This document shows positions 2,840-39,452 of a stretch of DNA of 39,521 nt, in pieces. The notes under the pieces are model-generated. The model did no database searches. It saw only the letters and a program-made list of their open reading frames with translations, and was not told the origin of the DNA. Position 1 is the first letter of the stretch, and every line of letters begins with the position of its first letter. Both the position numbers and the translations under genes were made by a program. This stretch comes from Planctomycetota bacterium (GTDB lineage: Bacteria; Planctomycetota; J058), in NCBI GenBank assembly GCA_024711205.1, contig JANJTH010000234.1, positions 1 through 39,521 of the forward strand, written 5' to 3'.

Positions 2840-4662
2840 CTCGGCTACTGCGCGTCGTCTCCCTCGGCAGCGTCGACGACGGAAAATCGACGCTCCTCGG
2901 CCGGCTGCTCCTCGAGACCGATGGTGCGCCGCTCGACCAGGTCGCCGAGGCCCGGCGCGCGACCTCACAGGCCTGGGTGGCTGCGACGGGCGAACCGATT
3001 GACCCGTCGCTCCTCACCGACGGGCTCCGCGCCGAGCGTGAACAAGGAATCACGATCGACCTCGCTTGGAGGACGCTGACTACTGCGCGGCGCCGCTTCG
3101 TCTTGGCTGACGCCCCAGGCCATGTCGACTTCCTACGCAACGTCGCTACGGGCGCTTCGACCGCGGATGCAGCGCTGCTCGTGATCGACGCCCGGACCGG
3201 ACCCAAGGAGCAGACACGCCGCCATGCCGCGGTCGCGGCGCTCATGGGCGTGCCTTGCGCCGTCATGGTGGTCAACAAGCTTGACCTGGTGGGATTCGAT
3301 GCCGGCTCATTCCACGCGGCGGAGACCGCTTGCCTCGACGTCGCGCGACGAGTTGGGTTCGAGCGGGTCACCTGCATACCGGTGAGCGCCCTCCACGGCG
3401 ACAACGTTGTTCGGCCTAGTCCGCGCATCGCATGGTGGCATGGCCCGACGCTCCTCGAAGAGCTCGAGACGCTCGCGCCGGAGCGCGGAGCTGAGGGACC
3501 GCTGCGCTTCCCTGTCCAGCTCGTCTTGCGGGCGCCCCACGGAGGACGCGGGCTGGCAGGGACGATCGCGGCCGGGACGATCCGTCCTGGCGACGAGGTC
3601 ATGATCCAGCCGGCCGGGCGACGCGCCCGCGTGTCGCGAGTGGCGACCTTCGACGGCGACCTCCCTGCAGCGAGCGCCGGTCGGGCGGTCGTCGTCTTCC
3701 TCGCAGACGACGTGGACGTCGCGCGCGGCGAACTGCTGGCGCGTCCCGAGCAACCTGCGCAGGTTTCACAGAGATTTCTTGCGACCGCGCTCTGGTTCTG
3801 CGATGTGCCCCTCACGCGCGACACCTCCTTCCTCGTACGCCACGCCACGGGCGTCGTCAGCGCACACGTCGAGGCCGTGCTGGACACTCTCGACGTCGAG
3901 ACTCTCTGCCCTCAGCCCGCCGCTCGTGTTCCGGAGAATGCGATCGGACGGGTCGTCCTCGCGCTCCAGCGCCCGATCCCTATCGATCCCTACGCGTTCG
4001 ATCGGACGACTGGCGCGGTCGCGCTCATCGACCCGATCACCAACGCGACTACGGGGGTTGGTGTCGTGCTTGAGGCCAACCTCGCCGGGGCGGGAGATCC
4101 GAGGCGTGGTCGTGGCACGGCCAAGCTCTTGGGACGTGCCGCGACCCTATGGCTCACCGGCCTGCCGGCTGCCGGCAAGACCACCCTCGCGAAGGCCCTG
4201 TGCGACGCTCTGATCGAGGAGGGACTCGCAGCCGCAGTCCTCGACGGAGACGTCCTGCGCGCCGGCCTCTCGCGCGATCTCGGGTTCTCGCCGATGGACC
4301 GGGCGGAGCAGGTCCGTCGCGCGGCGGAGGTGGCTCGGCTCATGAACGAGGCCGGCGTCGTGTCGATCGTTGCGCTGGTTTCACCGGAAGAGGCCGCTCG
4401 CGAGGCCGCGCGGAGGATCGTGGGGCCGGAGCGTTTCACCCTGTGCTGGGTCTCCACGACGCTCGAGGTATGCCGCCGCCGAGACCCCAAGGGCCATTAC
4501 GCGCGCGCCGAGGCGGGCGCATTACTCAACTTCACCGGTGTATCCAGCCCCTACGAGCAACCGATCCGGCCGGACGTCGTCGTCGACACCAACGAGACAC
4601 CGCTCGACGTGAGTGTCCGCGCCCTCCGCGATGCGCTCGCAGCAAGGCTCTCCTTGGACTGA
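2836..4662 (+). CDS. cysNC: Bifunctional sulfate adenylyltransferase GTPase subunit / APS kinase (CysN-CysC fusion, NodQ-like)
   Basis: N-terminal GTPase RVVSLGSVDDGKSTLLGRLL (upstream of the track start 2977), ADAPGHVDFLRN, VVNKLDLV; C-terminal APS kinase LTGLPAAGKTTLA, VLDGDVLRAGLSRDLGFS. No ATG/GTG/TTG precedes the GTPase motif; CTG at 2836 overlapping the cysD stop is the likely start. Confidence 0.9.
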   Translation: MTRLLRVVSLGSVDDGKSTLLGRLLLETDGAPLDQVAEARRATSQAWVAATGEPIDPSLLTDGLRAEREQGITIDLAWRTLTTARRRFVLADAPGHVDFLRNVATGASTADAALLVIDARTGPKEQTRRHAAVAALMGVPCAVMVVNKLDLVGFDAGSFHAAETACLDVARRVGFERVTCIPVSALHGDNVVRPSPRIAWWHGPTLLEELETLAPERGAEGPLRFPVQLVLRAPHGGRGLAGTIAAGTIRPGDEVMIQPAGRRARVSRVATFDGDLPAASAGRAVVVFLADDVDVARGELLARPEQPAQVSQRFLATALWFCDVPLTRDTSFLVRHATGVVSAHVEAVLDTLDVETLCPQPAARVPENAIGRVVLALQRPIPIDPYAFDRTTGAVALIDPITNATTGVGVVLEANLAGAGDPRRGRGTAKLLGRAATLWLTGLPAAGKTTLAKALCDALIEEGLAAAVLDGDVLRAGLSRDLGFSPMDRAEQVRRAAEVARLMNEAGVVSIVALVSPEEAAREAARRIVGPERFTLCWVSTTLEVCRRRDPKGHYARAEAGALLNFTGVSSPYEQPIRPDVVVDTNETPLDVSVRALRDALAARLSLD

Positions 4663-19574: not shown

Positions 19575-20762
19575 GTGCCGCGGCGGGTCACGGGGCGCCT
19601 CGAGCGAACGCGCGTGGGCGGCGAGGAGGTCGCGGCCTTCGTGCCCCTTCCGCTCCCCCCCGGCGACCCACCGCTCGACCTCGGGGTTGACCGGTCTGCC
19701 CTCGTTCGCCGCGCCGAGCAGGCCCTGGCCCGCCTCGACCTCGCGGGGGGCCTGGTCCCGTCGATCGACTGGATCGTTCACGCGTTCGTGCGCAAGGAGG
19801 CCGTCCTGTCCGCGCAGATCGAGGGCAACCAGGCCACCCTCGTCGACCTCTTGACCTTCGAGGCGCAGGCGCCTTCCGCCGAGGGCACGGCGACTCCGGA
19901 CGTCGAGGAGGTCTGCAACGCGCTCGACGCGCTCACGTTCGCCCGGGCCCAGCTCGCGGATCCCCGCGGGCTCCCGCTGTCCATGCGCCTCCTGAACGAG
20001 ACGCACGCGCGGCTCATGCGGGGCACCCGGGGCGCGGACAAGCGCCCCGGCGAGGTGCGGCGCAGCCAGAACTGGATCGGCGGCACCCGCCCGGGCAACG
20101 CGCGCTACGTGCCCCCGCCCCCGCACGCGCTGGGCGAGGCGCTCGGCGCGCTCGAGGCCTACCTGCACGCCGACGACGAGCTCCCGCCGCTCGTGCGCGC
20201 CGGCCTGCTCCACGTTCAGTTCGAGTCGATCCACCCCTACCTGGACGGGAACGGCCGGATCGGCCGCCTCCTCGTCACGCTCCTGCTCGAACGCTGGGGG
20301 CTGCTGACCCGCCCCCTGCTCTACCTCAGCCTCCACCTCCAGCGGCATCGCGCGGAGTACTTCCGTCGTCTCGACGCGGTGCGGGCCGAGGGCGACTGGG
20401 AGGGGTGGCTCGACTTCTTCCTCGAGGCCGTCGCCACGACCGCCGACGAGGCCGTCGCGACCGCGCGCGACCTCTTCGCCCTCGTCGCGACCGACCGCGC
20501 CCGCGTGCTCGCGCTCCCCGGGGCCTCCCTCGGCGCAGTCCGGCTGCTCGAGCTCCTCCCGCGCAGCCCGATCGTGACCGTCGGCACCGTCGTGCGGCTC
20601 CTGGGCACGACCAAGCCCACGGCCGGCCGAGCGGTCGAGGCGCTCGTCGCAGCCGGCGTGCTCGTCGAGACGAGCGGGAAGAAGCGCGACCGGACCTTCG
20701 CCTACGCGACCTACCTCGACCGCCTCCGCGGCGAGGCCGACCTGGCCCCGCCTGCCGCCTGA
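19575..20762 (+). CDS. fic: Fic family protein (AMPylase-like) with N-terminal inhibitory motif and C-terminal wHTH-like region
   Basis: Fic motif HVQFESIHPYLDGNGRIGRLL; inhibitory helix LSAQIEGNQ; C-terminal TVGTVVRLLGTTKPTAGRAVEALVAAGVLVETSGKKRDRTFAY. Confidence 0.93.
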   Translation: MPRRVTGRLERTRVGGEEVAAFVPLPLPPGDPPLDLGVDRSALVRRAEQALARLDLAGGLVPSIDWIVHAFVRKEAVLSAQIEGNQATLVDLLTFEAQAPSAEGTATPDVEEVCNALDALTFARAQLADPRGLPLSMRLLNETHARLMRGTRGADKRPGEVRRSQNWIGGTRPGNARYVPPPPHALGEALGALEAYLHADDELPPLVRAGLLHVQFESIHPYLDGNGRIGRLLVTLLLERWGLLTRPLLYLSLHLQRHRAEYFRRLDAVRAEGDWEGWLDFFLEAVATTADEAVATARDLFALVATDRARVLALPGASLGAVRLLELLPRSPIVTVGTVVRLLGTTKPTAGRAVEALVAAGVLVETSGKKRDRTFAYATYLDRLRGEADLAPPAA

Positions 20763-23460: not shown

Positions 23461-23620
23461 GCTGAGAGGCGGCGCTCGACGTACGAGCCCGAGCGGGGCT
23501 GGTCGTTCGAGCTGTTCGGGGGCGGGTAGCGTGGGTGGCGAGACTCGCGGGTGGGCAATGGCTTCTGGTCTTGGATTACTACTTCAAGCTGGTCACGGGC
23601 GCCCGGTCCTCGGGGAGGTC

Positions 23621-23710
23621 GACCGGCTCGAAGTCTCCCGAGCCGGTCGGCGAACCCCAGCAAGGTGCCCGAAGGGTTCTTGGAGCGTCGGAGCCCCCCG
23701 CGGCACCTTG
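23621..23710. promoter_or_regulatory. Two strong inverted repeats in the leader upstream of the druH-like gene
   Basis: GACCGGCTCG-8 nt-CGAGCCGGTC (23621-23648) and CAAGGTGCC-32 nt-GGCACCTTG (23661-23669 / 23702-23710); no T tract. Confidence 0.4.
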
Positions 23711-23840
23711 CATCAAGGCATCAAGCAGGGAGCGCGCCCGGCCCAGCAACGCCGTGGGGTCCCCTAAGCCGATCCCGGCTGCCTCGCGTCAGTCCAGTGG
23801 CGGCTCGTCGTCCGACCTGATAGACAACGGAGTAGGTGGG

Positions 23841-26800
23841 ATGCGCAGAGTCACTGGTCGCGAGCTGATCGACATCGAGCTCGAGCTCGCCAATGCGTGC
23901 CGAGAGCTCGAGTTGCTGTGCGAGCTCGACCTCGACGAGCGGGACACTGACCACCTCGCTTCAGGTATCCGACGACTCATCGAGGCCATGGGTCCAGGGC
24001 GAGCAACGGACCACTTGGCCGAGAAGTGGTCCCACGTGCTTGCCGCTTACCTCGTGTTCGAGGGCCTCAGGGGCTACTCCCAGGGTGACTTCTGGTCGGC
24101 GGTCTGCGCAAAGACCGGCCTCCCCGGCCCCAACTACGCGTGGAGGTGGGGGGCGGTCTTCCGTCAGGTCCTGGAGAAGCACCGCCTGCCCACGTTCGAT
24201 GAGTCGGGTGGAAACGTCCATATCACCCCGATCCTCCTTCACGGCGGCATCCCTGCCTATTGCCTTGCCGATTTCGTGCGCGAGTTCGTGATCCCAGGAG
24301 TCACGCGACCTGAGTTCGCGGGGCTTCGCGCAGGCGACCTACTGGCCTCGTGGCGCGACTCGGCTCGCATGGAGCGAGGAGATCGCCCGATCCGCAGGTT
24401 CCTGCAGCACGGTGGTCGCGGGGCGGAGGATTTCCTCGATCGGAGCCTGGATCTGGTCCGTGCGGTGCTGTCCGGGCAGGACGCGCGACCAGCGGACCAC
24501 GGCCTGCCGGACAAGTTCGGTCAGGTCGTGACCGAGACCCTCGAGAGCACGAAGACCCGGGGGCTCAGCTACGGCGGTGGCGCCCTTGGCGCCACCCGCC
24601 GCCTCGCGCCCAGGCTTGTCCTCGACGCATGGGGCGTGGGCCTCACGCTGCACCTCCCCGAACAAGCGATCGACGGCCAAGCAGCTCGCTGGGAGATCAC
24701 GATCGACGGGCAAGACCCGCTTCGGCACGCGCCGCGTGCTTGGCGCGCGCAGGGCGGCCTTCACCTCGAGTCAGAATCCATCCGCCCCGCCGCGCCCTTC
24801 CGGCACCTGCGTGTCCAGCTCGTCGTGGATGACGAACCGTGCGGTGCGCCCTGGACAATCGAAGGACTGACGCCCGAGCAACCTCTGCTGGCCTTCGACG
24901 AGGAACGCCTCGAGAGAATCGCCACCCGCAGGTTGGAGCCCCGCCCCGCCTGGTTCGTCGTGCCGCGGGACGCCCGACTCGAGGGGGGCCGCCCACTCTG
25001 CGGTCCGGCGCGCCTGCCAGGCGCCTGGGGTGAACTGGAGGCGCGCTGCCTCGACCTGAGCGAAGTGACGCGCCTGCGATTCGGCCATGGCGGGCGAACG
25101 CTCGACATCCCGGTCCTCGAGGAGAGCGCCTTCGTGCGACTCGACGGCCCTGTGTTGGACTCCGTTTCCTCCGCTCAGCGTGGAGCCGTGTTCACGGGAG
25201 GACCGGTCAAGGCGCGCTTCGGTGGTGTTCGTGGTCGTGCTGCGCTCCGGCTCCTGCCCGACTCCGGCGCGAGCCTGGCCTCGCCGTTGACGCTCGAGCC
25301 GGAAGGCTCGTCCTCCTCAGGCGAGCACGCGCTCGACCTCGACGCGCTCGGTCTCGAGGGCGCGTTTGGCAGCTTCGTCGCAGTCGTCCGAGGAGCACTC
25401 GGCCACTCCTGCCGTGTCGCGTTCGCGATCGTGCCGGGCCTAAGCATCGAGTTCGGCACGACGGGGGCGCCCCACGCGATCCTGCGTTGCCCTGACGTGC
25501 TGTTGCGCGTGGAGGATGGCGGCTGGCTGGAACCCGCCCGGGGTGGCCAGCGCCTCGTGTTCACCCCTGAGCGCAGGGAGGCGATCGTCGTCGCGAGTCG
25601 AGGCGCGAACTCGGTCAGCCTTCGAGTCCCGAATCCGGCGCCGCGCTGGGCCTTGGTCGGCATGGAGGAGGAGACGGAAGTCATCGCTTGGCACACGCGC
25701 GCGCTCGAGACCGATCGCGAGCGCCTTGAGCTTGCCCAGGCGCCCGCGGTGGTCGTCGAGTGGCCGGTCGATCGGGGTAGCGAACCCAGGCTCGTCCTCG
25801 AGCGCGCCGGGGAGACCGTCCAGGTGCTCGAGGCAGCGCGCACGGGCCGCGTCGCGCGCTTCGAGCTCGTTCCTGCTCGAGCGAACCTCGAACGCCGGCA
25901 GGGTGGGTTTGCCCGACTCGTCCTTCAACCCGGAGGCCACGAGGTCGTCCGCGTGCGCTCTGCCTGGTCACCACGCAACGTCCAGGTCGAAGCTTACGTC
26001 GAGGGCGAGACCACCCGCGTCGTCGCGTCCTGGTCGAGCGACGACGCCCTCCCCGGTCGAGAGCTTGCTCTGTTCGACCTCCAGCGCCCGTGGAGGTCGC
26101 CGCTGGCGCTCTCGATCCCCGACGCCGATACGAGCCGCTGTGGTGTGGATCTGCCTCACGCGGCGCTGCCCGGGGGACCGACTCGAGCCTGGCTCCGCCT
26201 GCGCGACCCGTGGGCAGCCGACCCCCAACCCTGGGACGTCCCGGCTCCGGGCTCGCGAGGGGTGTGCGACTTCGTCGCGCCGCCTTCGAGTGCCTCGGAG
26301 CAGGTGGAGGACGGCGCCCTCGCGTGCATCGAACGCGCCTTGGCCAGCCCGAACGCTCGCGCCGCGCTCACAGCGCTCGGCGGACTGGGGTGCGTGCCCG
26401 TCGACGCCTTCTCCCGGGTCGTCGAGCTCCTCACGGTCCTCATCCGGTACCCGTCCACGGACACGGTCCACCAGCGGGTCCGAGAACGCCTGCAGGAGCT
26501 GGTCCAGGCCGATCACCGCCCCTTCCTGGTCGCCCTGGCGCGACTCGGCGAGCGCATGCCCGTGGACGCCTTGCGGACGCTTGCCCGCGGACAGGACCTC
26601 GGCCAGCGAATCGCCGGGCGGCACCGCACCCCGTTTGTCCGGAATCCCGCCGGGGACAAGCAGCTCCTGGAGGCGAGCGACGAACTGACGGCCGACGAGG
26701 TCGTCGAGTTGCTGAAGAAGCCCGAGGCGCCGGTCGAGGGAGAGCGCCTGTCCGACGGCGAACTCGATGCGCTCGGGCGCATCTCGCCCGCGCTCGTGGT

Positions 26801-27680
26801 CTTCCTGGAGTCAGCGACGCTTTGCGACGAGGCGGCTGGAGCTCGGCGCCGGTTCGAGCGCCTCCTCGGCGAAACGACCGTGCAGGAGCTGCAGCCACTG
26901 CGGCCAAGGACCGTCGTGGCTGTCGGAGACCAGCCCGTCCTTCTCGCCTCGGTCTACACGGATGGGCTCGAGGTCGGGGCCGCGCTTCACGGACCGCGAC
27001 TGCCGGGTGGCCTCGTGCTCGTCGGCCAGCAGGTGCCTGGTCCTGGAGAAGTGAGAATTGAGCTCCAGCGTGACGGAGGGGTCATCGCGCGTATCGCCGA
27101 GCAAGACATCCGCGCCGAGGGCCTCCGCATGGATCTGCAGCAAGCCTTTCCAACCAGCAGATTCGCCTGCTGGGCCGAGGCCTGGCGGCCCGCTTTCGAG
27201 GCCGTGAGCGATGGCTCGAGGCCTGAGCTCGCCGCGCTCGGTGGCGGCGTGAGCTCCGTTGCTGGCGGCTTGCTCGATGCGGACCGCCTCGTCATCGCGG
27301 TCCGCGAGGCGCTCGAGGGCGTGGGTCGTCTCGGCGCCAAGGAACGGAAGGCGCTCGAGGTCCAACTCGGCAACGCCACGAAGCTCCTGGAGCGAGGGCT
27401 CCAGCTGAACGCGAGCCGTCTGCCTCGCGCGTTCGCCGTGGCCATCCGCCGTCGCCAGCGACCCGAGGCCAGCCGGTTCTGGCTCATGCACCTGCCGTTC
27501 GCCTCGCTCGCCGCCGCGACCATGCAGCGCCTGTTGGCGCGGCGCGAGGCGCAGGACGTCGGCATCCGTCCTCTGCAGTTGGCCGAGCTGGCGCGCGCGC
27601 TGGCCGGGATCGCTCCTACTCTGCAAGAGCGGGACCTCTGCCTCGCCGAGCTCGCGCTCGCGTGGTTCCGGGAGACCTGA
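23841..27680 (+). CDS. druH: DruH-like large protein of a Druantia type III-like system
   Basis: About 1279 aa of unrecognised domain content directly upstream of a DruE-like helicase; ATG at 23841 after AACGGAGTAGGTGGG; call rests mainly on size and gene neighbourhood. Confidence 0.6.
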   Translation: MRRVTGRELIDIELELANACRELELLCELDLDERDTDHLASGIRRLIEAMGPGRATDHLAEKWSHVLAAYLVFEGLRGYSQGDFWSAVCAKTGLPGPNYAWRWGAVFRQVLEKHRLPTFDESGGNVHITPILLHGGIPAYCLADFVREFVIPGVTRPEFAGLRAGDLLASWRDSARMERGDRPIRRFLQHGGRGAEDFLDRSLDLVRAVLSGQDARPADHGLPDKFGQVVTETLESTKTRGLSYGGGALGATRRLAPRLVLDAWGVGLTLHLPEQAIDGQAARWEITIDGQDPLRHAPRAWRAQGGLHLESESIRPAAPFRHLRVQLVVDDEPCGAPWTIEGLTPEQPLLAFDEERLERIATRRLEPRPAWFVVPRDARLEGGRPLCGPARLPGAWGELEARCLDLSEVTRLRFGHGGRTLDIPVLEESAFVRLDGPVLDSVSSAQRGAVFTGGPVKARFGGVRGRAALRLLPDSGASLASPLTLEPEGSSSSGEHALDLDALGLEGAFGSFVAVVRGALGHSCRVAFAIVPGLSIEFGTTGAPHAILRCPDVLLRVEDGGWLEPARGGQRLVFTPERREAIVVASRGANSVSLRVPNPAPRWALVGMEEETEVIAWHTRALETDRERLELAQAPAVVVEWPVDRGSEPRLVLERAGETVQVLEAARTGRVARFELVPARANLERRQGGFARLVLQPGGHEVVRVRSAWSPRNVQVEAYVEGETTRVVASWSSDDALPGRELALFDLQRPWRSPLALSIPDADTSRCGVDLPHAALPGGPTRAWLRLRDPWAADPQPWDVPAPGSRGVCDFVAPPSSASEQVEDGALACIERALASPNARAALTALGGLGCVPVDAFSRVVELLTVLIRYPSTDTVHQRVRERLQELVQADHRPFLVALARLGERMPVDALRTLARGQDLGQRIAGRHRTPFVRNPAGDKQLLEASDELTADEVVELLKKPEAPVEGERLSDGELDALGRISPALVVFLESATLCDEAAGARRRFERLLGETTVQELQPLRPRTVVAVGDQPVLLASVYTDGLEVGAALHGPRLPGGLVLVGQQVPGPGEVRIELQRDGGVIARIAEQDIRAEGLRMDLQQAFPTSRFACWAEAWRPAFEAVSDGSRPELAALGGGVSSVAGGLLDADRLVIAVREALEGVGRLGAKERKALEVQLGNATKLLERGLQLNASRLPRAFAVAIRRRQRPEASRFWLMHLPFASLAAATMQRLLARREAQDVGIRPLQLAELARALAGIAPTLQERDLCLAELALAWFRET

Positions 27681-27682
27681 CC

Positions 27683-30600
27683 ATGACACGCACCCTTCAC
27701 CCCATCGAGTCCTTCGCTGCGGTCAGGGACGAGTATCTGCGCTACCTGCGGAGCTTCTTCCGGTTCCGCGACCCGAAACTCGAGGCGCAGTTCGGCCGGG
27801 AGATCTCTACGCCGGGGCGCCTCGTGCGCGGACCTCTCCTCGAGTCGGTGCCGCCGTTCGTGCTTGGCCCCTCGATCCGCGACCTGGTCGAGGAGGGCGT
27901 GCTCTCGGCCGGCTTCGAGCGGCTCTGCGCGCGAGCTGGCACAGAGCTCCCCTATGACCGCCCTCTCTATGCTCACCAGGCGCGCGCAATCCGACTCGCC
28001 GTCGGCGAGGGCCGGAACGTCGTGGTCGCCACCGGAACTGGCAGCGGCAAGACCGAGTCCTTCGTGCTGCCGATCCTTGACCGCCTTCTTCGGGAGGAGG
28101 AGGAAGGGAGGCTCGGGCCCGGAGTGCGAGCTCTGCTGCTCTACCCGATGAACGCGCTCGCGAACGACCAGGTGAAGCGCCTCCGGAGGATCCTCTCCAG
28201 GTATCCGTCGATCACCTTTGGTCGGTACACGGGCCAGACCGAGGACGAGCCGCGCAGGGCCCGCGCGGAGTTCCGGAAGGTCAACCCAGGAGAGGAGGAG
28301 CTCGAGCACGAGCTCAAGAGTCGCGAGGAGATGCAGGCCACCCCGCCTCACATCTTGCTCACGAACTACGCCATGCTCGAGTATCTGCTGCTGCGCCCAC
28401 AGGACATCTCGCTGTTTGAAGGCCCGTCGACCGGGACGTGGGCCGACGTGGTGATCGACGAGGCCCACGTCTATGACGGCGCGAACGGCGCCGAGGTCGC
28501 GATGCTCCTGCGGCGAGTCCGCGACCGGGTCGCTCGAGGACGGAGCCTCCGCTGCTTCGCCACGAGCGCGACGCTCGGCTCGGGAAACTCGGCCCGCGAC
28601 GCCGCCGCGGGGTTTGCACGCACGCTCTTCGATCATCCCTTCGAGGCGACCGACGTCGTCCACGCAGAGCGGATCGAGTTGCCCGTCTTGGCACCGACCG
28701 ACGCCTGGAGACCGGCGCCCTCGTTGTATGGAGCCCTCGGCACCGCGCTGGAGAATGATGCGTCGAGAGACGAGTTGGGAGCGATCTGTACCCGTCACGG
28801 CGTGCCTGCCGCAGTCGTGGACGCTGCGCGCCGGCGTCGAGCCGTCGACGCGGCTCCGGCCTCCACGCCCGTCGCGACGACACCGGACGACCCTTGGGGG
28901 CTTGGCGGGTCCGCGCCGTCGCGGGTCGCGGCGGCCGTGAGAGCACCTCGGGACGACGTCTCGGGCTTCCTCTACGACGTGCTCGTCGGTGACGCGAACC
29001 TCGCGACGCTGCGCCGTCTCCTCAAGGAGGGCGGCCCGACGCTCGTAACCGAGCTCGTCGGCGCGGTGCTCGGGGAAGGCGACGAACGAGGACAACTCGA
29101 GGAGCTGGTCCAACTCGTGAGGCTGGCTGCCATGGCGAGGAAGGACCCGCGCTCCATGGCCCTCTTGCCCGCGAGGTACCACGTTTTCTGCAGGGCGATC
29201 GACGGTGTCTTCGTGTCCTTGGTCGAGGAACCCCTCGTGGAGCTCGGCACTGGTCGCCGGCTGTTCCTTGATCGGTGCGATCGGCATGAGCTTCGTGGCC
29301 AGTCGGTCCGGGTCTTCGAGCTCGCAGCGTGTCGCCGGTGCGGGCTCGAGCTCGTGTTCGGCTACCTCCGACCCACCGAGCCTCAGACACGGGAGCTCGT
29401 CCAGCTCAGCCCGGCCGAGCGCGAGGCCGCGGCGACCACGGCCACGCCGCTCGAGCCAGCGTACTTCGCCCTCGGGGTCGACGAGCCGGCTCCGCTCGAC
29501 GAGGACGGCGAGGTGCTGCAGCCGGAGCCGACACCCGAGCCGGCCCCGCCACCAGAGAAGCCCGCAGCCGACGGCAAGCCGGACGTGCCGGAGGGTGGCC
29601 CTCGCCGCCGCGCGCCGAGGGAGGGCGCACCGAAGGCTGTCCAACCCGACGCGTATCGACTCTGCGCTGCCTGTGGAGCGGTGGAGGAGGCCTCACCGCT
29701 GGCAGGTTCCTGCCGGTGCGAGCGACCGTCATGGCTGCCCGTCCGTCGCGCGGCGACCTCGCGTACCGACGAGCTCAAGTGCTGTCCTGGGTGCGGCGGC
29801 AGCTCGGTGGGTGGCGAGTCTCATCTGCGTTTCCTCACAGGTCAGGACGCGCCGGTCGCCGTCATTGCCGCGGCGCTCTACCACCAGCTCCCAGCCCTCG
29901 ACGCCACGCCGTCGGGTGGACGCAAGCTCCTGTGCTTCGCCGACAGCCGGCAGGACGCAGCGTTCTTCGCTCCTTATCTGGAGAGGAGCTACGGCACGCT
30001 GTTGCAGCGGCGGCTGATCGCCATCGCCCTCGAGCAATGCCGTGGCGCGGTGAACTTCGAGACGCTGGCGGACCAGGTTCGCCGGGCCGGCGAAACGAAG
30101 GGGGTCTTCCAGGCCGGCGCGACTCAGGCCGAACGGCAGACCGAGGCGCGACGCTGGCTCATGCGCGAGCTCCTGTCGCTCGATCGCGACATCGGCCTCC
30201 TTGGCCGAGGGATCCTCCACGTCGACGTGGAAGAAGTCCCGCCACTCCCCCGGCCCATTCTCGACGCGTGGAAGCTCGATGACGCGCAGGGGACCCAGCT
30301 CGTGAAGGCTCTGCTGACGAGCCTCGTCCCGCAGCATGCCATCGAGTTCCCGGTGGGCGTGCAGCCCACACACGAGGACTTCGAGCCGAGGAACTTCGAG
30401 ACGTTCGTTCGGGACCAGGGCTCCGATCGCATGAAGCGGATCCTGAGCTGGGTCCCGGCCACCCCGACCGGCAACAACCGCCGCCTCGACTACCTGCGCC
30501 GCGTTCTCGAGCGCAGCAAGGGTCGTCCGGCGGGAGTAGACCTCGTCTTCGATCTGCGCCGGCTGTTCGAGTGGGCCACCAAGGTGGCCCGCCTGCTCGT

Positions 30601-33600
30601 GCCCAAGACGATCCCGAACGAGGGCGAGGTCTTCCAGGTCCCGCTGTCGAGGCTGGCGTTCGAGTCGACAGCGGCCCGCGACCTCCGGCTCTGGCGCTGT
30701 GACCGCTGCCAGCTCGTCACGTCCTTCTGCTGCGCTGGGGCCTGTCCCGGCTACCGCTGCACGGGAGCTCTCGCGCTGGCCGAGTTCCCCGAGGACGACC
30801 ACTACCGGCGCTACTACCGAGGCACCGAGCCCGTTCCCATGCGGGTCATGGAGCACACTGCGCAGCTGGCCACGACCGAAGCCGCGAAGGTCCAGTCCGA
30901 CTTCGTCGCCGGCGAAGTGAATGTTCTCTCGTGCTCGACGACGTTCGAGCTGGGCGTTGACGTGGGCGAGCTGCAGGCGGTGCTGCTGCGCAACGTACCG
31001 CCGACGACGGCGAACTACGTGCAGCGCGCCGGGCGCGCTGGTCGCCGGACCGACTCCGCCGCCTTCTGCGTGACGTACGTCCAGCGCAGGTCGCACGACC
31101 TGGCACACTACGCGCGGCCCGAGCGCCTCGTGGGCGGCGAGATCCGAGCGCCTCGGGTGAAGCTCGCCAATGCCAAGATCGCGCGGCGACACCTCCACTC
31201 CATCGTGCTCGCCCACTTCTTTCGAACGCGCGCGCCGGACTCGGTCGGCAAGTGCGAGGACTTCTTCGCCGCCGATGGCGCAAAGACCAGCGCCGTCGAC
31301 TCGCTCGGCGAGCTTCTCCGCGCGCGCCCACCTGAGCTCGCCGAGTCGCTCCGCCGGTGCCTTCCTCCCGCGTTGCACGACGAACTCGGCCTCGATGGTT
31401 GGACGTGGGAGCTCCACCTGCTCGGCGAAGCGGGGCTCCTTCAGTGCGCGCGTGAGGAGTATGAGCAGGAGGTGAGCCAGTTCCGCACCATGCGCGAGGA
31501 GGCGAAGACCGAGAACAAGCTCATGCGGGCCAATCAGCTCCAGGAGTACCTCAACACGATCCAGCGTCGAGAGCTCCTCGGCTACCTCGCCTCCCGGGGA
31601 GTCCTGCCGAAGTACGGCTTCCCGGTCGACGTGGTGCCGCTCAAGCTGTACGGGCACCGCGAGGCGGCGCGCCGTCTCGAGCTCGAGCGGGATCTGTCGT
31701 TGGCGATCTCGGAGTACGCACCCGGCTCCTCGGTCGTGGCTGGCGGTCGTCTCTGGACGAGCCGCGCGGTCGCGCTGCGACGGGACCGGAAGCTCCCGCC
31801 GAGCGACTACTCCGAGTGCCGCTGCGGCTGGTTCCGGCGGTGGACCGGCAACGCGACCGAAGGCGCCCGCCCGGTGGAGTGCCCTCGCTGCAGGAGCGAC
31901 AAGCTGATTCACGGGAGCTACGTCGTTCCAGAGTTCGGCTTCGCGACCCTTGCCGACGACGAGCCGCGGGCCCCTGGGGCGTCACGACCGATGCGGGTCT
32001 GGGCGTCGCGGGTGCACTTCGTTTGCGACGACACAACGGATCATGAAGTGGTGCTCGGTGACGGCGAGCGACGTCGGACCGTGAGCATCGCCCGGCGTGC
32101 CCGCGGCGAGCTGGTGCTCGTCAACGCAGGACGCGCGAGTGTCGGCTACTGGATCTGCGATTACTGTGGCTTCGGCGAGCATGTCGCCAGCTCCGCCAAG
32201 CCGCCGAAGGATCACAAGCGCCCCTGGGGCAGCAAGTGCAAGGGCTTCTTTGAGCGGCCGCGCGCGCTCGGCCATGCGTTCCTCACCGATGTGTGCGAGC
32301 TCCGCTTTCCTGGCGCCGCGGCGACGACGGACACGAGGTTCTGGTCCAGCCTCCTCTATGCGGTTGTGGAGGGTGCGGCGAGCGCCCTCGAGCTACGCCG
32401 CGACGACATCGATGGGTGTCTCCACGCACTTGACGCCGATGAACCTTCGGTCGTCCTCTTCGACACCGTGCCCGGTGGGGCCGGCTTCGTCGAGCTGCTG
32501 CGCGAGCCCGAAGCGCTCGAGGCGGTCCTTCGTGCTGCATTCACTCGGGTAGAGGACTGCTCGTGCGCGGAGGACACGAGTTGCTACGAGTGCCTACGGG
32601 GCTACCGGAACCAGTGGTGTCACGACCAGCTCGTGCGCGGCCCGGTCCGGGCGTACCTGGAGGAGCTGCTGTCCGCGGTCTCCGGTGCACGCATGCACAT
32701 TCAGCCGGTCCCGGCGGTCGACCCCGGCCGCTGGCTGGCACGGGAGGTCCTTGCCGCCCGCAGCGTGGAGCTCGCCGTGCGAGGGTTTGGCTTTTCGAGC
32801 GAGCTCGACGCCGCTGCGCTCGGCCTGGCGCAGGACTGGTGGGAGATCATGGGCCAGGCAGCCCAGCGAGGCGCCAACGTTCGCCTCATGATCGGGGTCC
32901 CCAATCGGCCCTCGATCACGCGTCGACCGGACGACGGCCGGACGCTGACCGAGCTGCGTGCACTGGCCGAGCGAGGCGTGGACGTGCGACCGCTCGGACC
33001 GCGCGCGTCTCGCCCGGACTGGGACATGGCGCTCGTATGCGGAGACGGAACGACTGCGCGCCGCCGCTTGGTGCGGCTGCGCCGCACCACGGACGACCGC
33101 GAACTGGTCTTCCTTCCGGCCATGTTGCGCGGGGCTGCGCTCGAGACGTCCCTTCACCCAGAGGTGGTCGCTAGCGGGGTCGCCGAGCTGTCCCAGTTGC
33201 TCAGCAGCGTCCAGCGGCTCTCGGCGTCCGATCCGCGGCTGGACCTGACCGGGGCTCAGGTGCGCAGGATCGAGAGGGGCGAGCGAGGGTCCATCGGTAG
33301 CTACTTCCGGGAGTATCTGAACGCGGAGGTCACGGCAGTCGAACTTCTCGACCCGTACGTGCGTCGCCCGGAGCAGTTCGTGAACCTGCGGCGACTCGTC
33401 GAGGAGCTGAGTCAGGTCGCCGGGCGGGCTCTCGAGGTCCGCCTCACGACGACCGCTCCCCCTTCCGAGCGCGAGGCGGAGGTTCAAGTCCAGGCCGCTG
33501 AGGTCGAGCAGCTTCGAGCCTGGGCGCAGGATCGACAAACGAACCTGCGAATCGACCTGCGACAGGATCGCGCGTTCCATGACCGTGAGGTTCGCCTCAT

Positions 33601-33733
33601 CGAGCCAGCGACCGACTCTCGGACGGTCGTTCTGATTGGCCGTGGCCTTGACACGTGGACGGACACCAGACGAGCGCGCGACGCCCTCTCGAGGGAGACC
33701 TACCTCGCGGCATTCCGAGAGCCACTCGTTTGA
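27683..33733 (+). CDS. druE: DruE-like DEAD/DEAH helicase with DUF1998 and C-terminal PLD-like/MIT_C-like region
   Basis: VVATGTGSGKTESFVLPILD, LLLYPMNALANDQ, VVIDEAHVYDG, CFATSATLGSG, ANYVQRAGRAGRRTDSAAF; DUF1998-like Cys motif CSCAEDTSCYECLRGYRNQWCHDQLVRG; ATG at 27683, 2016 aa. Confidence 0.75.
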   Translation: MTRTLHPIESFAAVRDEYLRYLRSFFRFRDPKLEAQFGREISTPGRLVRGPLLESVPPFVLGPSIRDLVEEGVLSAGFERLCARAGTELPYDRPLYAHQARAIRLAVGEGRNVVVATGTGSGKTESFVLPILDRLLREEEEGRLGPGVRALLLYPMNALANDQVKRLRRILSRYPSITFGRYTGQTEDEPRRARAEFRKVNPGEEELEHELKSREEMQATPPHILLTNYAMLEYLLLRPQDISLFEGPSTGTWADVVIDEAHVYDGANGAEVAMLLRRVRDRVARGRSLRCFATSATLGSGNSARDAAAGFARTLFDHPFEATDVVHAERIELPVLAPTDAWRPAPSLYGALGTALENDASRDELGAICTRHGVPAAVVDAARRRRAVDAAPASTPVATTPDDPWGLGGSAPSRVAAAVRAPRDDVSGFLYDVLVGDANLATLRRLLKEGGPTLVTELVGAVLGEGDERGQLEELVQLVRLAAMARKDPRSMALLPARYHVFCRAIDGVFVSLVEEPLVELGTGRRLFLDRCDRHELRGQSVRVFELAACRRCGLELVFGYLRPTEPQTRELVQLSPAEREAAATTATPLEPAYFALGVDEPAPLDEDGEVLQPEPTPEPAPPPEKPAADGKPDVPEGGPRRRAPREGAPKAVQPDAYRLCAACGAVEEASPLAGSCRCERPSWLPVRRAATSRTDELKCCPGCGGSSVGGESHLRFLTGQDAPVAVIAAALYHQLPALDATPSGGRKLLCFADSRQDAAFFAPYLERSYGTLLQRRLIAIALEQCRGAVNFETLADQVRRAGETKGVFQAGATQAERQTEARRWLMRELLSLDRDIGLLGRGILHVDVEEVPPLPRPILDAWKLDDAQGTQLVKALLTSLVPQHAIEFPVGVQPTHEDFEPRNFETFVRDQGSDRMKRILSWVPATPTGNNRRLDYLRRVLERSKGRPAGVDLVFDLRRLFEWATKVARLLVPKTIPNEGEVFQVPLSRLAFESTAARDLRLWRCDRCQLVTSFCCAGACPGYRCTGALALAEFPEDDHYRRYYRGTEPVPMRVMEHTAQLATTEAAKVQSDFVAGEVNVLSCSTTFELGVDVGELQAVLLRNVPPTTANYVQRAGRAGRRTDSAAFCVTYVQRRSHDLAHYARPERLVGGEIRAPRVKLANAKIARRHLHSIVLAHFFRTRAPDSVGKCEDFFAADGAKTSAVDSLGELLRARPPELAESLRRCLPPALHDELGLDGWTWELHLLGEAGLLQCAREEYEQEVSQFRTMREEAKTENKLMRANQLQEYLNTIQRRELLGYLASRGVLPKYGFPVDVVPLKLYGHREAARRLELERDLSLAISEYAPGSSVVAGGRLWTSRAVALRRDRKLPPSDYSECRCGWFRRWTGNATEGARPVECPRCRSDKLIHGSYVVPEFGFATLADDEPRAPGASRPMRVWASRVHFVCDDTTDHEVVLGDGERRRTVSIARRARGELVLVNAGRASVGYWICDYCGFGEHVASSAKPPKDHKRPWGSKCKGFFERPRALGHAFLTDVCELRFPGAAATTDTRFWSSLLYAVVEGAASALELRRDDIDGCLHALDADEPSVVLFDTVPGGAGFVELLREPEALEAVLRAAFTRVEDCSCAEDTSCYECLRGYRNQWCHDQLVRGPVRAYLEELLSAVSGARMHIQPVPAVDPGRWLAREVLAARSVELAVRGFGFSSELDAAALGLAQDWWEIMGQAAQRGANVRLMIGVPNRPSITRRPDDGRTLTELRALAERGVDVRPLGPRASRPDWDMALVCGDGTTARRRLVRLRRTTDDRELVFLPAMLRGAALETSLHPEVVASGVAELSQLLSSVQRLSASDPRLDLTGAQVRRIERGERGSIGSYFREYLNAEVTAVELLDPYVRRPEQFVNLRRLVEELSQVAGRALEVRLTTTAPPSEREAEVQVQAAEVEQLRAWAQDRQTNLRIDLRQDRAFHDREVRLIEPATDSRTVVLIGRGLDTWTDTRRARDALSRETYLAAFREPLV

Positions 33734-33965: not shown

Positions 33966-36900
33966 TCAGTCGCCTTGCTGGCCGAGGTGACGCGTGACGC
34001 CGGCCACGCCCGTCCGTGCGCCCCCGAGCCCGCGAGTGAGACGCGAATTGCGTGCGGCGGGCCGGCCGCTGGAATCAGGCGGAATCGGACCACCGACCAC
34101 ACGCCCCTCTGTGGTCGTGCCCGCCCACCTGGTGACGACCGAAGCGGCACCTCCCGCCGCCGTTACGAGGCCCTCGAGCCAGGAAGGTTCCTCGTCCTGG
34201 TCGTGCGCGCCGTAGGTCCCCAGGTGGTTCAGCACACGGAAGCTCCGTTGAACGGCCTCGGGGATTCGCCGGTCCTGACGTGGTCCCCTGGACCAGGCAG
34301 CGAGCGCGTCGAGGCGCGGCTGGAGATCCTTGCCGTCGCTCCTGCTGGCCTGCTCCGGTGAGGTCCACCGCTCCTCGGCCAGCCTTACAGCTCGCTCGAG
34401 CATGATTCGATACTGCTGCAGGGCCTGCTTCCATTCGCGCTTGCGAGCGTGCCGCTTCGCCTCCCTCTCTGCCCCCACGACCTCCTTCTGAACCGCGACG
34501 CAGCGTCGCCGGCGCTCCTCAGGGTCGAACCATGTCGGGTTTCGCGCTCGGAGGATGTCTCGACGCTCTGCCTCGGTGATCTGGCCTGATCGAGCCAAGG
34601 TCGTGAGAAGCGCGTTGAATTCGCCAGGCTTCAGGAGCGCGATCTCACCCTCGACCAGCTTCGGAAGCGCATCCCGCGGGATCCGGTGGACCCGTCGGAG
34701 GTCGAGCGACCAGGCACCTGGGCCGCCCTTGGCGACTTCGCGGAGCAGGGCCTTCTTGCTGCGAGCCTCGAGCCCCATGGGGTAGGCCATGACGGCGTCC
34801 TTGCTGTCCCAGAGGATCAGAATCACCTCGGGAATTCCCGGGAAGACGACGTCGCGACCGCGCAGCAAGTCACCCCGAGGCCTTCGAAGGTCGGGCAACG
34901 TCGCCTTGAGAAGATGCCCCGGACCGTAACGGACGTCCTCGCTCGGCCCTTTCCGGTCCAGGCCAGGGTTCGGTGCCGACGCCTCGCGTTCAGAGCGCCG
35001 CTGTGCTTGCTCGAGGCCCCGCTCCGCCTCGAGCACGTCCTCGTCGAGGAACCCACTCGGCCAAGTCGTCGGCTCGCCCCGCTCCGTCAACTCGACACGT
35101 GTCAAGGTCGCAGACGCGGCCACTCCCTCGCTCCCTTCGTGGAGCTCCGTGAAGTAGACGCCAACCCGCTCCGCGCACAGTTCGCCTGCGCCGACGGCCC
35201 GGCAGATCCGCCGCACGACGAGGTCGGATTGGGTCTCGAGCAGGATGGACTTCCCGGCACGCACGTGCTCCAGCAGGTGCTCGATCAGTCGCACCTGCAG
35301 GGCCGGGTGGAGGTGCACCTCCGGATTCTCCAGGACGAGCGTCTCCCCTGGCTGGGCGACCGTGGCCTGAAGAACGATCGGATAGAGGTGATGCCAGCCC
35401 GTGCTCATTTCAAGCGGGACGGCGCGCTCCGCCGCCGGGAACGCGGGGGAACTGAACCGTCGCTGGTGTTCCTCCCCCAAGCCGATTGACCCTCTGTACG
35501 GCCAGAGCATCCGCCGTTGTGTATCGAGCGGCCCTGGGTCGAGTTGCACTGCGCTGGGGCCCGGGACGGTCGCGCGCGAGGGTGACCGGGTCAACGACCC
35601 GATCACTTGATCCATGACGTCGGCGAGCGAGTTGGTGCTGCGTTGAAAGTGTATCGCCGCAATACTTGTCAGGTCGAGGAGCAGGAGCTCGTTCCGCCGT
35701 CGGAGGTCGGCCGGCTCCAACTTGGTGCCCGCGCACGAGAGAAGGAAAGCAAGCTCGGAACGCCGGGACAAGGACAGTCCCCTGCCGCGGCTTAAGAGCC
35801 GGGCCGGACTGGGGACGAGGTCCCTGTGCTCTACCCAATGCCGGACGCAGCCTCGCGTGAGCTGGGCCAGCTCCGTCATGCCGTGGAGCTCCTTCAGCAA
35901 GGCGGCGAGGCTCTCATGCCACTGATTCGCAACTTTGCTCTTCACCCCTCTGCTGTAAGAGAGCGGCTGGAAGTACCCGTAGTCGGACCTGGACCTCAGC
36001 GCATGATCGAGTTCGGGCAGGATGCGCCTGCCCAGCTCTTCCCAGGGGTCGCGGACAGGTTCGGGCAGCAGCGCGAGCCAGCGTGCCTGCTCTTCCGCCG
36101 AGATGCAGTCCGACGGGAACAAGACATGACGGCTCAACGCGAGCGCCTGTTCGTCCGAGAACTCGAGTCGCTTGGCGTGCGCCGCGAACGGGGGCTCGAG
36201 CGGACGAGTGTAATCGAATCCGATCGCTGACAGGACCTTCAGGGTTCGCTCCCCGCGAACACCTACGTGACGTCGAGAGACGTTCGGCGCGAGGCTGATC
36301 TTCGTCTCGACCGCGCTACGGGAGATCGCAGAGATCTCTCGGATCGACCCGACATGGAAGGAGCTGTCCACCACGGGGCAGAGCGTGCTTCGAAGACGCG
36401 AGGTCAGCGCGCGGACGAGCGGATCCCGGAACACGGGCCCATGCGCCTCACGGGAGCATGAGTGGCGTGCGAGGTCGCTCCCGGCAGGGCACTTGAATGT
36501 CACCTCGGCCTTTGCAGCAGGTGAGTCCGTGTTGCCCGAGTGGTTCAAGCGTGCCGCGAGGGTCCCTGCTCCGTGGAGCGTCATGGCGCACTCGGTCGAG
36601 CGTAAGGTCCCGGCGTCGAAGTGGCGACTGTATGTGTAGCTCGTGCGGACGGTGAAGGTGAAGCGGGCGCCCTTCGGCGCCTTCCCTCGCCAGAGCCACG
36701 CGTCGAAGTCCGGAGTGACCGTGGGGGCGGATTTGGGGCGGGACAGTTCGCCACAGTCCAGATCGGCCAGCAAGACGAACTCGAACTGGATCTCTCCAGG
36801 CTTCTCCGCCCCCTCCAGCGTGCGATCCCGCGAGACGAGATGGCCCATGTCGTAGTCGCGCTCCCTCCCGACCCGTAGCCACTCCCTCCGCACGATGGGA

Positions 36901-37958
36901 CGGAAGGGGAAGTCCTCCGACGGCACCGCCTCCTGGAGGTAATCCAGGACCGAGAGCCAGGTGCTCTTCCCGGTCCCGTTCGGCCCGCAGAGCACGGTCA
37001 GCGCTTGGAGTTCGAGGGTCGTCCTCGTCCGATAGGCACCAATGCCGTCGATCGTGAGCCGCTCGACGCGTGCCATGCCGCTGGGACGAGGGCTTGGCTT
37101 CGCGGACCAGAGGAGGCCCTCGACCCGGTGGGCAGGGACCGTCTCGCTGGCTTGGGCGTCGAAGGCTGGCGTGCCGGCTGGAGGGGGCACCTCACAGGGG
37201 CCCCCACATACGGCCGCGGCAGGGAGTCCAGCTCCCAGGGCCTCCAGGTCGCTTGCCAAGACCAGCGGCGCTGGAGGCAACCCATAGGCCTCTCGGGCGA
37301 GCTCGAAGAGATCCGGGACGTCTCGCACCGAGGTGGACCTGATGTGTCCGTACACTCGCCCAAGTCGAGGCACGCCGCGGAAGGCCGACTTGGTCGAGGA
37401 CTCGAGGAGGAGGATCCTCTCCCTTGGGCGGTCATCCGAGGCGGGGTGCCGATCCTGGTCATTGAGGAGATGAGTGTCCGGCTGGTGGCGCAGAGCCTCC
37501 CACACCTGGATGCAGAACTCGACATACTTCGCAGTCAGCGGCGGCTTCACTTTGCGAAAGGTGCCGACCGGCCGCTGCCAGTGCGTGGGGTCCTGGTTGT
37601 CGGCCCAGCGGCCCGCCCCTTTTCGAACCATTCGCTCAATTGGATCGGACCAGTCTTTCCGAAGCGCATGCACCCCACCAGGCACGCGCGTGCCCTTCGG
37701 TGACCTCCATGCCTGGGGGCCCGAGATGCCAATGGCAGACACCCCCTGAGAGCGCGCGAACTGCATGAGCGTGTCGACCAGGCGCTTGGGCGTCAGGGGG
37801 ACAGCTGGCCACGCAATGGGGCGGACGACCACGCCGACCCATGCGGGGCGCTCGGTCCGGAGGAAGGAGAGGCCCACGACGGAGTTCTCCGACCATGACT
37901 TCTCGGACAGGGCGAGGCCCAGGACACGAATGCGCCTCGGGTCGCTAGGGTCCGCCAT
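33966..37958 (-). CDS. RNase H-like (DUF429-like) N-terminus fused to OLD/DUF3696-like ATPase, with a possible HEPN/DUF4145-like C-terminus
   Basis: N-term RVLGLALSEKSWSENSVVGLSFLRTERPAWVGVVV...VSAIGISGPQAWRSPKG; ATPase VLCGPNGTGKSTWLSVLDYLQ and VLENPEVHLHPALQVRLIEHLLEHVRAGKSILLETQSDLVVRRI; C-term QQYRIMLERAVRLAEE...RSFRVLNHLGTYGAHDQDEEPSWLEGL. Confidence 0.7.
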   Translation of the reverse strand: MADPSDPRRIRVLGLALSEKSWSENSVVGLSFLRTERPAWVGVVVRPIAWPAVPLTPKRLVDTLMQFARSQGVSAIGISGPQAWRSPKGTRVPGGVHALRKDWSDPIERMVRKGAGRWADNQDPTHWQRPVGTFRKVKPPLTAKYVEFCIQVWEALRHQPDTHLLNDQDRHPASDDRPRERILLLESSTKSAFRGVPRLGRVYGHIRSTSVRDVPDLFELAREAYGLPPAPLVLASDLEALGAGLPAAAVCGGPCEVPPPAGTPAFDAQASETVPAHRVEGLLWSAKPSPRPSGMARVERLTIDGIGAYRTRTTLELQALTVLCGPNGTGKSTWLSVLDYLQEAVPSEDFPFRPIVRREWLRVGRERDYDMGHLVSRDRTLEGAEKPGEIQFEFVLLADLDCGELSRPKSAPTVTPDFDAWLWRGKAPKGARFTFTVRTSYTYSRHFDAGTLRSTECAMTLHGAGTLAARLNHSGNTDSPAAKAEVTFKCPAGSDLARHSCSREAHGPVFRDPLVRALTSRLRSTLCPVVDSSFHVGSIREISAISRSAVETKISLAPNVSRRHVGVRGERTLKVLSAIGFDYTRPLEPPFAAHAKRLEFSDEQALALSRHVLFPSDCISAEEQARWLALLPEPVRDPWEELGRRILPELDHALRSRSDYGYFQPLSYSRGVKSKVANQWHESLAALLKELHGMTELAQLTRGCVRHWVEHRDLVPSPARLLSRGRGLSLSRRSELAFLLSCAGTKLEPADLRRRNELLLLDLTSIAAIHFQRSTNSLADVMDQVIGSLTRSPSRATVPGPSAVQLDPGPLDTQRRMLWPYRGSIGLGEEHQRRFSSPAFPAAERAVPLEMSTGWHHLYPIVLQATVAQPGETLVLENPEVHLHPALQVRLIEHLLEHVRAGKSILLETQSDLVVRRICRAVGAGELCAERVGVYFTELHEGSEGVAASATLTRVELTERGEPTTWPSGFLDEDVLEAERGLEQAQRRSEREASAPNPGLDRKGPSEDVRYGPGHLLKATLPDLRRPRGDLLRGRDVVFPGIPEVILILWDSKDAVMAYPMGLEARSKKALLREVAKGGPGAWSLDLRRVHRIPRDALPKLVEGEIALLKPGEFNALLTTLARSGQITEAERRDILRARNPTWFDPEERRRRCVAVQKEVVGAEREAKRHARKREWKQALQQYRIMLERAVRLAEERWTSPEQASRSDGKDLQPRLDALAAWSRGPRQDRRIPEAVQRSFRVLNHLGTYGAHDQDEEPSWLEGLVTAAGGAASVVTRWAGTTTEGRVVGGPIPPDSSGRPAARNSRLTRGLGGARTGVAGVTRHLGQQGD

Positions 37959-38096: not shown

Positions 38097-39452
38097 TCAC
38101 GGAGCGAACACCGGGGGACTGGGATCAGCCGGACTCAGCAAGCCCAATGCGAACTGGCGTGCGCGCTCCCTGGGCCCGTGGAGACACATGGCAAGTGTCG
38201 TGAGGGCTACGGGTCTCAGCTTGACCCGTGCCCGGGGCGTGCGTGCGAGCGGGTCGAGGATGTCCACCGCCGACTCCCGAGCGAGCGGGGAGGTCGTGGG
38301 GTAGAGGATCGTGGCCTCGCGCTGGCCGTGGCTCAGGGCGTAGATCGCGAGCTGGTAGAGCATGGAGGACGGGAGGGGGGTCTCCCAGAGGTCGCGGTAC
38401 TTCACGTCGAGGAAGGGGAGGACCCGGTTGCGGCGGCGGATCGCGAGGTCGGGGCGGGGCGTGGGGGCGGAGCGGTTGCGGGGGTTGAGGCCTGGGGCGT
38501 AGCGGAAGACGCCGGAGAGGCGGTGCTCGGACTCGACGCGGAAGTCGTCGGGCAGGTGCTCGGAGAGGAAGCGGGTGAGGACGGCCTGGAAGAGGCGGTT
38601 CATGTCGAACAGGAAGCCGGGGAGGGGGCGGTCGGCGCCGGTCGTGTCCCCGTCGTCGAGGCCGTGGGCCTCGTGGAGGAGGCGGATCAGGTCGACGACG
38701 GGCGTGTAGCGGTCGGTGAGGCGGCTGGTCGCGCGGTCGGCGGCGGCGAAGGTCGCGGCGTCGAGGCGGATGCGCGTGACGGAGTCGCCGAGGCGGGCGG
38801 CGAGGCGGCGGAGGGTGATCGCCAGGCCGCGGTCGGCCGTGAGGTCGGCGCCCAGCTCGAGGCCGGCGCGGAGGACGCGATTGAGGAGGACGTCCTCGCG
38901 GCGGGGGTGGTGGACGCAGGGGAGGGACGCGAGGGTCTGGGCGGCGGGGCCGCGGCGGGCGAGGGCGTCGAGGTCGAGCCGGCCGCGGGGGGAGGCGAGG
39001 TCCTCGGCGCGGCGGAGGTAGGCGCGGTGGAGGCCGGAGTCGAGGAGCTCGGCGGCCTCGGCGGCGAGCTGGGCGATCAGGAGGTCGGGCCAGGCCTCCG
39101 GGGTCGTGACGGCATCGACGAGGTCGACGAGCGCGAGGTCGCGCAGGCGGAAGCCGTAGCGGACGAGGGTCAGGAACGGCGCGCCTTCGATCTTGGGCAG
39201 GACGGTCAGGTCGAGCGCGCCGAGGCGCACGCGGCCGACCCAGGCGCTGGTCGTGATCGAGAGGCCGTGCCGGAGCTCGGTCACCTCGATCCGGCCCGAG
39301 CGGGTGAGGCGCTCGGCCACGCGGCGTCCGGCCGGATCGTCGTCAAACGTCTGTCCCCGCAGCGCCGGGTCGTCCCCGGGGCCGCGGGACTGCCACTCGC
39401 GAAGGACGAGCCGCGGGCGCGGGGGCGCGGGCGCGCGAAGCGTCGCCTTCAT
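38097..39452 (-). CDS. mcrC: McrC family protein (5-methylcytosine-specific restriction system component)
   Basis: Central PLPGFLFDMNRLFQAVLTRFLSEHLP, then RPDLAIRRRNRVLPFLDVKYRDLWETPLPSSMLYQLAIYALSHG (PD-(D/E)xK nuclease core). Confidence 0.85.
   Translation of the reverse strand: MKATLRAPAPPRPRLVLREWQSRGPGDDPALRGQTFDDDPAGRRVAERLTRSGRIEVTELRHGLSITTSAWVGRVRLGALDLTVLPKIEGAPFLTLVRYGFRLRDLALVDLVDAVTTPEAWPDLLIAQLAAEAAELLDSGLHRAYLRRAEDLASPRGRLDLDALARRGPAAQTLASLPCVHHPRREDVLLNRVLRAGLELGADLTADRGLAITLRRLAARLGDSVTRIRLDAATFAAADRATSRLTDRYTPVVDLIRLLHEAHGLDDGDTTGADRPLPGFLFDMNRLFQAVLTRFLSEHLPDDFRVESEHRLSGVFRYAPGLNPRNRSAPTPRPDLAIRRRNRVLPFLDVKYRDLWETPLPSSMLYQLAIYALSHGQREATILYPTTSPLARESAVDILDPLARTPRARVKLRPVALTTLAMCLHGPRERARQFALGLLSPADPSPPVFAP

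Follow-up and report, generated by a model that had tools for sequence, protein, structure and literature searches.

ATPase-plus-nuclease modules of bacterial defence include PARIS, Gabija, Menshen and HEC-03, and OLD-type ABC ATPases form the sensor half of PARIS, Gabija and probably Menshen. In PARIS, a hexamer of AriA sequesters AriB until the phage protein Ocr is sensed (PMC11455837), and single-gene AriAB fusions are also known (PMC10568477). A 2026 BREX survey describes Toprim, HNH, PD-(D/E)XK and PIN partners of OLD-ABC ATPases, and a text search of this survey returned no mention of MazF, PemK or CcdB (PMC12839542). Our literature search likewise found no defence pair composed of a MazF-like toxin and such an ATPase, although one may have been described earlier. 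Here we analyse a 1330-amino acid gene (positions 33966-37958, minus strand, ATG start) in a 39,521-nucleotide stretch of DNA (the window) of a Planctomycetota bacterium (assembly GCA_024711205.1, contig JANJTH010000234.1), which encodes, in this order, a DUF429 domain, an OLD/DUF3696-type ABC ATPase, a C-terminal core (C-core) of about 120 amino acids and a helical tail. With a probability of roughly 40%, we read this gene as having diverged from a two-gene module of ATPase and MazF-like ribonuclease to encode a single polypeptide, which would now function as a sensor or scaffold with binding flanks.

The ATPase domain comprises residues 297-985 (35004-37070; all parts of the gene lie on the minus strand) and was assigned by Pfam, by the PADLOC model NsnB and by eight relatives. 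It exceeds the Pfam cut-offs for AAA_21 (47.7 bits, cut-off 27) and AAA_15 (41.7 bits, cut-off 32.1), and NsnB is its best PADLOC model (E 6e-32), with the strongest similarity at the C-terminal end of the domain. An earlier annotation of this DNA made from the letters alone, here called the sequence-only reading, had labelled the domain OLD/DUF3696-like; the AAA and NsnB matches uphold the ATPase family, and NsnB also confirms the DUF3696 look, whereas the Pfam model DUF3696 stays at 14 bits, below its cut-off of 22. The core residues of the Walker A motif GPNGTGKST (residues 325-333; 36960-36986) are invariant in the ATPase alignment, and the Walker B region ENPEVHLHP (residues 877-885; 35304-35330) conforms to the ABC-type motif ENPExHLHP; both motifs are named in the sequence-only reading. 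The switch histidine is replaced by Gln910 (35229-35231), with ETQSD in the window protein versus ETHSD in all eight relatives, and GWHH replaces the relatives' GFHQ.

Similar to PARIS, in which an OLD-type ABC ATPase controls a toxic nuclease, the window protein is matched by AriA models, albeit weakly (E 9e-12). AriB, however, is a Toprim nuclease, and neither the C-terminal 335 residues of the window protein nor the flanking genes have a Toprim match in Pfam or PADLOC. Although Menshen (NsnA-NsnB-NsnC) supplies the best PADLOC match, the window lacks both the DUF262 protein NsnA and NsnC, has McrC and DruE as neighbours instead, and contains an ATPase domain of about twice the length. The PADLOC candidate systems HEC-03 and PDC-M55 share a DUF3696-type ATPase, which in HEC-03 is accompanied by a small downstream gene, but the match is confined to the final ~130 residues of the window ATPase.

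A scan with the ATPase alignment, covering genomes of 84,980 species, identified eight near full-length relatives (L049-L056), which match residues 288-983 of the window protein and originate from metagenome-assembled genomes (MAGs) labelled as Planctomycetota, Planctomicrobium, Schlesneria, Hydrogenedentes and Verrucomicrobia. Unlike the window protein, all eight are stand-alone ATPases of 588-848 amino acids without a DUF429 domain (L050 is truncated by the end of its contig, and the 1068-amino acid open reading frame (ORF) of L049 begins upstream of the likely gene of 689 amino acids), and they retain the switch histidine. Downstream DNA is present in seven of the eight loci, and in each of these seven the ATPase gene overlaps the following gene by 4-20 nucleotides (for L056, 50 nucleotides from the first ATG and 11 from the ATG at 3261, the latter being used here). 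This gene encodes about 140-175 amino acids and occupies the place taken by the C-core in the window protein, where no separate gene is present. Two of the seven partners match PemK_toxin below the curated cut-off (E 3.6e-4 and 5.3e-3), and the only PDB matches of a profile built from all seven are five MazF/PemK/EndoA chains at E of about 0.2. The catalytic pair of MazF consists of an arginine and a threonine; the arginine of the partners' GKxRP stretch is invariant (7/7), and a threonine follows it in six of seven. On these sequence similarities, the partner proteins are likely but not proven to be MazF-like, and the pairs point to an effector that differs from the one proposed in the sequence-only reading, namely a MazF-like protein with a gene of its own that overlaps that of the ATPase. 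HEC-03A showed no match to these partners, and we found no published name for the pairs.

Several of the pairs occur in defence contexts. In a Planctomycetota MAG, the ATPase and its MazF-like partner (L052:1-3694) are encoded between PglW (E 3e-96) and PglX (E 4.5e-22), and therefore reside in a type-2 BREX (Pgl) locus. The L051 ATPase adjoins a PDC-S14 gene. L049, the closest ATPase relative, shares its contig with L029:4389-16421; here, the ATPase and partner genes run in reverse orientation, with connector and tape-measure genes of a phage on either side and the gene for a major head protein nearby, which makes this pair a candidate for prophage-borne defence cargo. Partner and ATPase were found together: the partner profile matched only one of 294 genomes, the one containing the closest ATPase, and no match, fused or free, was obtained in the genome of the window itself. 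It is possible, if doubtful, that the relatives constitute an undescribed abortive-infection module of BREX loci and prophages and that the window protein is a fused sensing or binding derivative thereof which has lost catalysis. Within the phylum of the window, the long ATPase was found in three of 343 genomes, one copy being broken. A long-ATPase gene of the phylum at L030:2522-3340 (minus strand) is reduced to a 272-amino acid piece and apparently broken. Both Hydrogenedentes loci contain a divergent gene upstream of the ATPase (L051:6922-7677 and L053:82-855, minus strand), the L051 copy of which matches PADLOC PDC-S14 (E 2e-52).

The N-terminal domain (residues 1-294; 37077-37958) by itself matches nothing in Pfam or PADLOC at a threshold as loose as E 10. 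However, residues 12-292 share 32% identity (E 2e-9) with a stand-alone protein (L040:9557-10315) encoded by another member of this bacterial family; that protein in turn matches PF04250 (DUF429) at 23.6 bits (curated cut-off 23). The DUF429-like appearance described in the sequence-only reading is thereby borne out transitively, through this homologue, and places the domain in the RNase H superfamily. The genes around the L040 homologue look like pterin and short-chain-dehydrogenase genes, not defence genes. DUF429, a member of the RNase H-like superfamily, has probable active-site residues on strands 1 and 4 and is mostly found as a single domain, with the exception of NUDIX or RelA/SpoT fusions (PMC3985635). 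The domain of the window protein departs from this family both in being fused to an ATPase and in having lost the catalytic aspartate pair, the strand 1 and strand 4 positions of which were taken from the alignment to the homologue. At the first site, the window protein reads GLALS (Ala16; 37911-37913) versus GVDLA in the L040 homologue and GIDG in L103, a further DUF429 member from the phylum of the window; at the second site, it reads GISGP (Ser79; 37722-37724) versus GLDGP and AVDMP, respectively. The nuclease site is predicted to be dead because the aspartate pair is replaced and only Glu186 of the third acidic motif is left; the N-terminus has thus lost the acids of an RNase H fold while keeping the family. 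According to the sequence-only reading, the protein would be a self-contained defence factor, which implies a nuclease of RNase H-like and/or HEPN type under the control of the ATPase in the same chain. The superfamily membership of DUF429 and the retained Glu186 are in line with such a nuclease, but with alanine and serine at the two aspartate positions, which the homologue has kept, a self-contained RNase H nuclease was rejected.

The DUF429 homologue ends in HRVEGLIWTASPGG followed by its stop, a few residues short of the place of Met295 in the window protein (ATG at 37074-37076), which is about where the stand-alone ATPases start. At this junction, the window protein reads HRVEGLLWSAKPSPRPSG-MARVERL, with Met295 opening MARVERL. 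As the end of DUF429 meets the start of the ATPase at Met295, the fusion occurred at a gene boundary. The same near-exact meeting, in a fragmented draft genome of 962 contigs, would also be expected if two or three proteins were really encoded here and had been joined by a base error or were translated separately from internal starts such as Met295. Errors at both junctions would, however, have to restore the frame, and no obvious ribosome site precedes Met295, so that we regard this explanation as very unlikely. Scans of genomes with the full protein or the N-terminal domain yielded no second fusion, and viral and plasmid collections contained only distant DUF3696 ATPases.

The ATPase runs in frame into the C-core (residues 1006-1128; 34575-34943), for which a MazF-like fold is suspected. 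MAFFT, in four modes, aligned the first half of the C-core (GIPEVILIL...AYPMG) with the stretch GKPRPMLVL...LPITS of the partners (GKxRPMLVL...PITSK). In alignment A8, the arginine and threonine of the partners correspond to Glu1044 and Gly1062. A search with VIA-align using a model of the C-core recovered MazF, Kid or CcdB structures as nearly all of the 50 PDB entries listed, with Z of at most 4.8 compared to 4.0 for an unrelated chain. The C-core is followed by a tail of helices predicted at low confidence (residues about 1150-1280; 34119-34511), which contains the motif LNHLGTYGAH noted in the sequence-only reading; single-sequence AlphaFold prediction of the last 335 residues gave an unusable model with a predicted local distance difference test score (pLDDT) of 40. 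With Pfam and PADLOC searched down to E 10, the tail matched no family, HEPN and DUF4145 included, and the proposed HEPN-type assignment was set aside for want of family support. Catalytic HEPN domains carry the arginine of RxxxxH, the place of which is taken by an asparagine in LNHLGTYGAH, in agreement with the earlier remark that a clear catalytic motif is missing. An active nuclease gated within the same chain, whether RNase H-like or HEPN, is hence highly improbable.

The fused ORF is present as a single copy in its genome. At a G+C content of 71%, the window contains long spurious ORFs, such as one of 885 amino acids in antisense at 26987-29644, and length is therefore no proof of a gene. 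Homology to the DUF429 homologue (residues 12-292) and to the eight ATPases (residues 288-983) supports a real gene and confirms the multi-part fusion recognised from the sequence alone. In addition, codon position 3 is the most G+C-rich across most of the frame. Residues ~1281-1330 (33966-34118) are atypical in codon composition, with a G+C of 0.78 at codon position 2, and these last ~50 codons may represent run-on translation after loss of the native stop.

The gene lies 138 nucleotides downstream of mcrC on the same strand (38097-39452; 451 amino acids; PF10117 E 5.5e-25, covering 2-318 of 318 model positions), and the contig ends before any mcrB. It is convergent with a DruE-like helicase gene (27662-33733, plus strand; PADLOC DruE1 E 2.6e-177), as previously noted. 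Together with the BREX and prophage locations of relatives, this neighbourhood agrees with the defence setting suggested in the sequence-only reading, as far as the contexts of individual loci are concerned. Directly upstream of the DruE gene and overlapping it, a 1381-amino acid protein is encoded (23535-27680, plus strand), which has no match in Pfam, PADLOC or NCBIfam and is perhaps an unnamed partner in the Druantia-like locus. The same region encodes a Fic/DOC-family protein (19575-20759, plus strand; Fic E 1e-18, Fic_N E 7e-18). DNA repeats of note were not observed in the window.

By analogy with PARIS, the ATPase of the parent two-gene module would sense infection and would keep the co-translated ribonuclease inactive until infection, upon which the toxin would be released. 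In the form encoded in the window, the separate ribonuclease gene would have disappeared, with the in-frame C-core, possibly of MazF origin, taking its place, and a DUF429 domain would have been joined in front, almost exactly at the old gene boundary. A role as sensor or scaffold is proposed on the grounds that the ATP-binding motifs are intact, while replacements affect the aspartates of the RNase H site, the putative arginine and threonine of MazF and the switch histidine alike. The nuclease-fold flanks may bind nucleic acid or partner proteins, and cutting may be left to other proteins of the island, of which McrC is the nearest.

A number of results weigh against descent from such a module, most of which concern the C-core. 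No Pfam or PADLOC match was obtained for this region even at E 10, its comparison with the partners reached E 0.13 in hhalign, a profile hidden Markov model scored no better than shuffled sequences, and 64 of 300 shuffles attained the alignment score. As these three tests failed, a MazF relation of the C-core based on sequence was rejected, and the relation is no more than suspected, given the position of the C-core and a weak match in fold. The model of the C-core is of low confidence (pLDDT 58, predicted template modelling score 0.48); since the partners were part of the alignment from which it was made, its fold evidence is weak and partly circular. Its MazF matches reach only Z 4.8, and Foldseek returned no match with E < 0.001. 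Alternatively, the C-core and tail might form a new effector or adaptor domain that is not related to MazF, its position being a coincidence or the result of a replacement. This would be consistent with the lack of sequence support and of a significant Foldseek match, and with the different downstream genes (NsnC, HEC-03A) of other DUF3696 ATPases. As the MAFFT alignment to the partners in all four modes and the predominance of MazF/Kid/CcdB entries, despite their modest Z, argue in the opposite direction, we consider a new domain rather unlikely.

The reading as a fused sensor or scaffold is further weakened by the occurrence of the fusion in one genome only, by a tie to McrC that goes no further than adjacency, and by the ATPase sequence itself. 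The window ATPase keeps 51 of the 67 columns that are invariant in the other eight, compared to 86-100% in the others, and has thereby diverged furthest among the nine, which also fits decay. The gene might thus be a decaying remnant of an acquired ATPase-ribonuclease dyad in which stop codons and active sites were lost and which has no present function, its fused ORF surviving owing to the rarity of stops at 71% G+C. Alteration of all catalytic sites except Walker A and B would be explained in this way, as would the composition of the last ~50 residues and the restriction of the fusion to a single genome; moreover, G276, another relative in the phylum, is visibly broken. In contrast, 1330 codons are free of stops, the third-position G+C signal holds over most of the frame, and the Walker motifs and the above 51 columns are intact. 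We consider such a decaying remnant rather unlikely. Taken together, the window protein is most likely either an ATP-dependent sensor or scaffold with nuclease-fold flanks that bind and do not cut, or such a remnant.

The dyad of the relatives is the more testable part of these findings compared to the fusion in the window. With a MazF-like partner encoded on an overlapping gene, the OLD-type defence ATPases would gain a branch that cuts mRNA. The fused form, if functional, would represent the recruitment of nuclease folds into a defence ATPase as parts that do not cut; if it has no function, it would document how modules of this kind come to an end.

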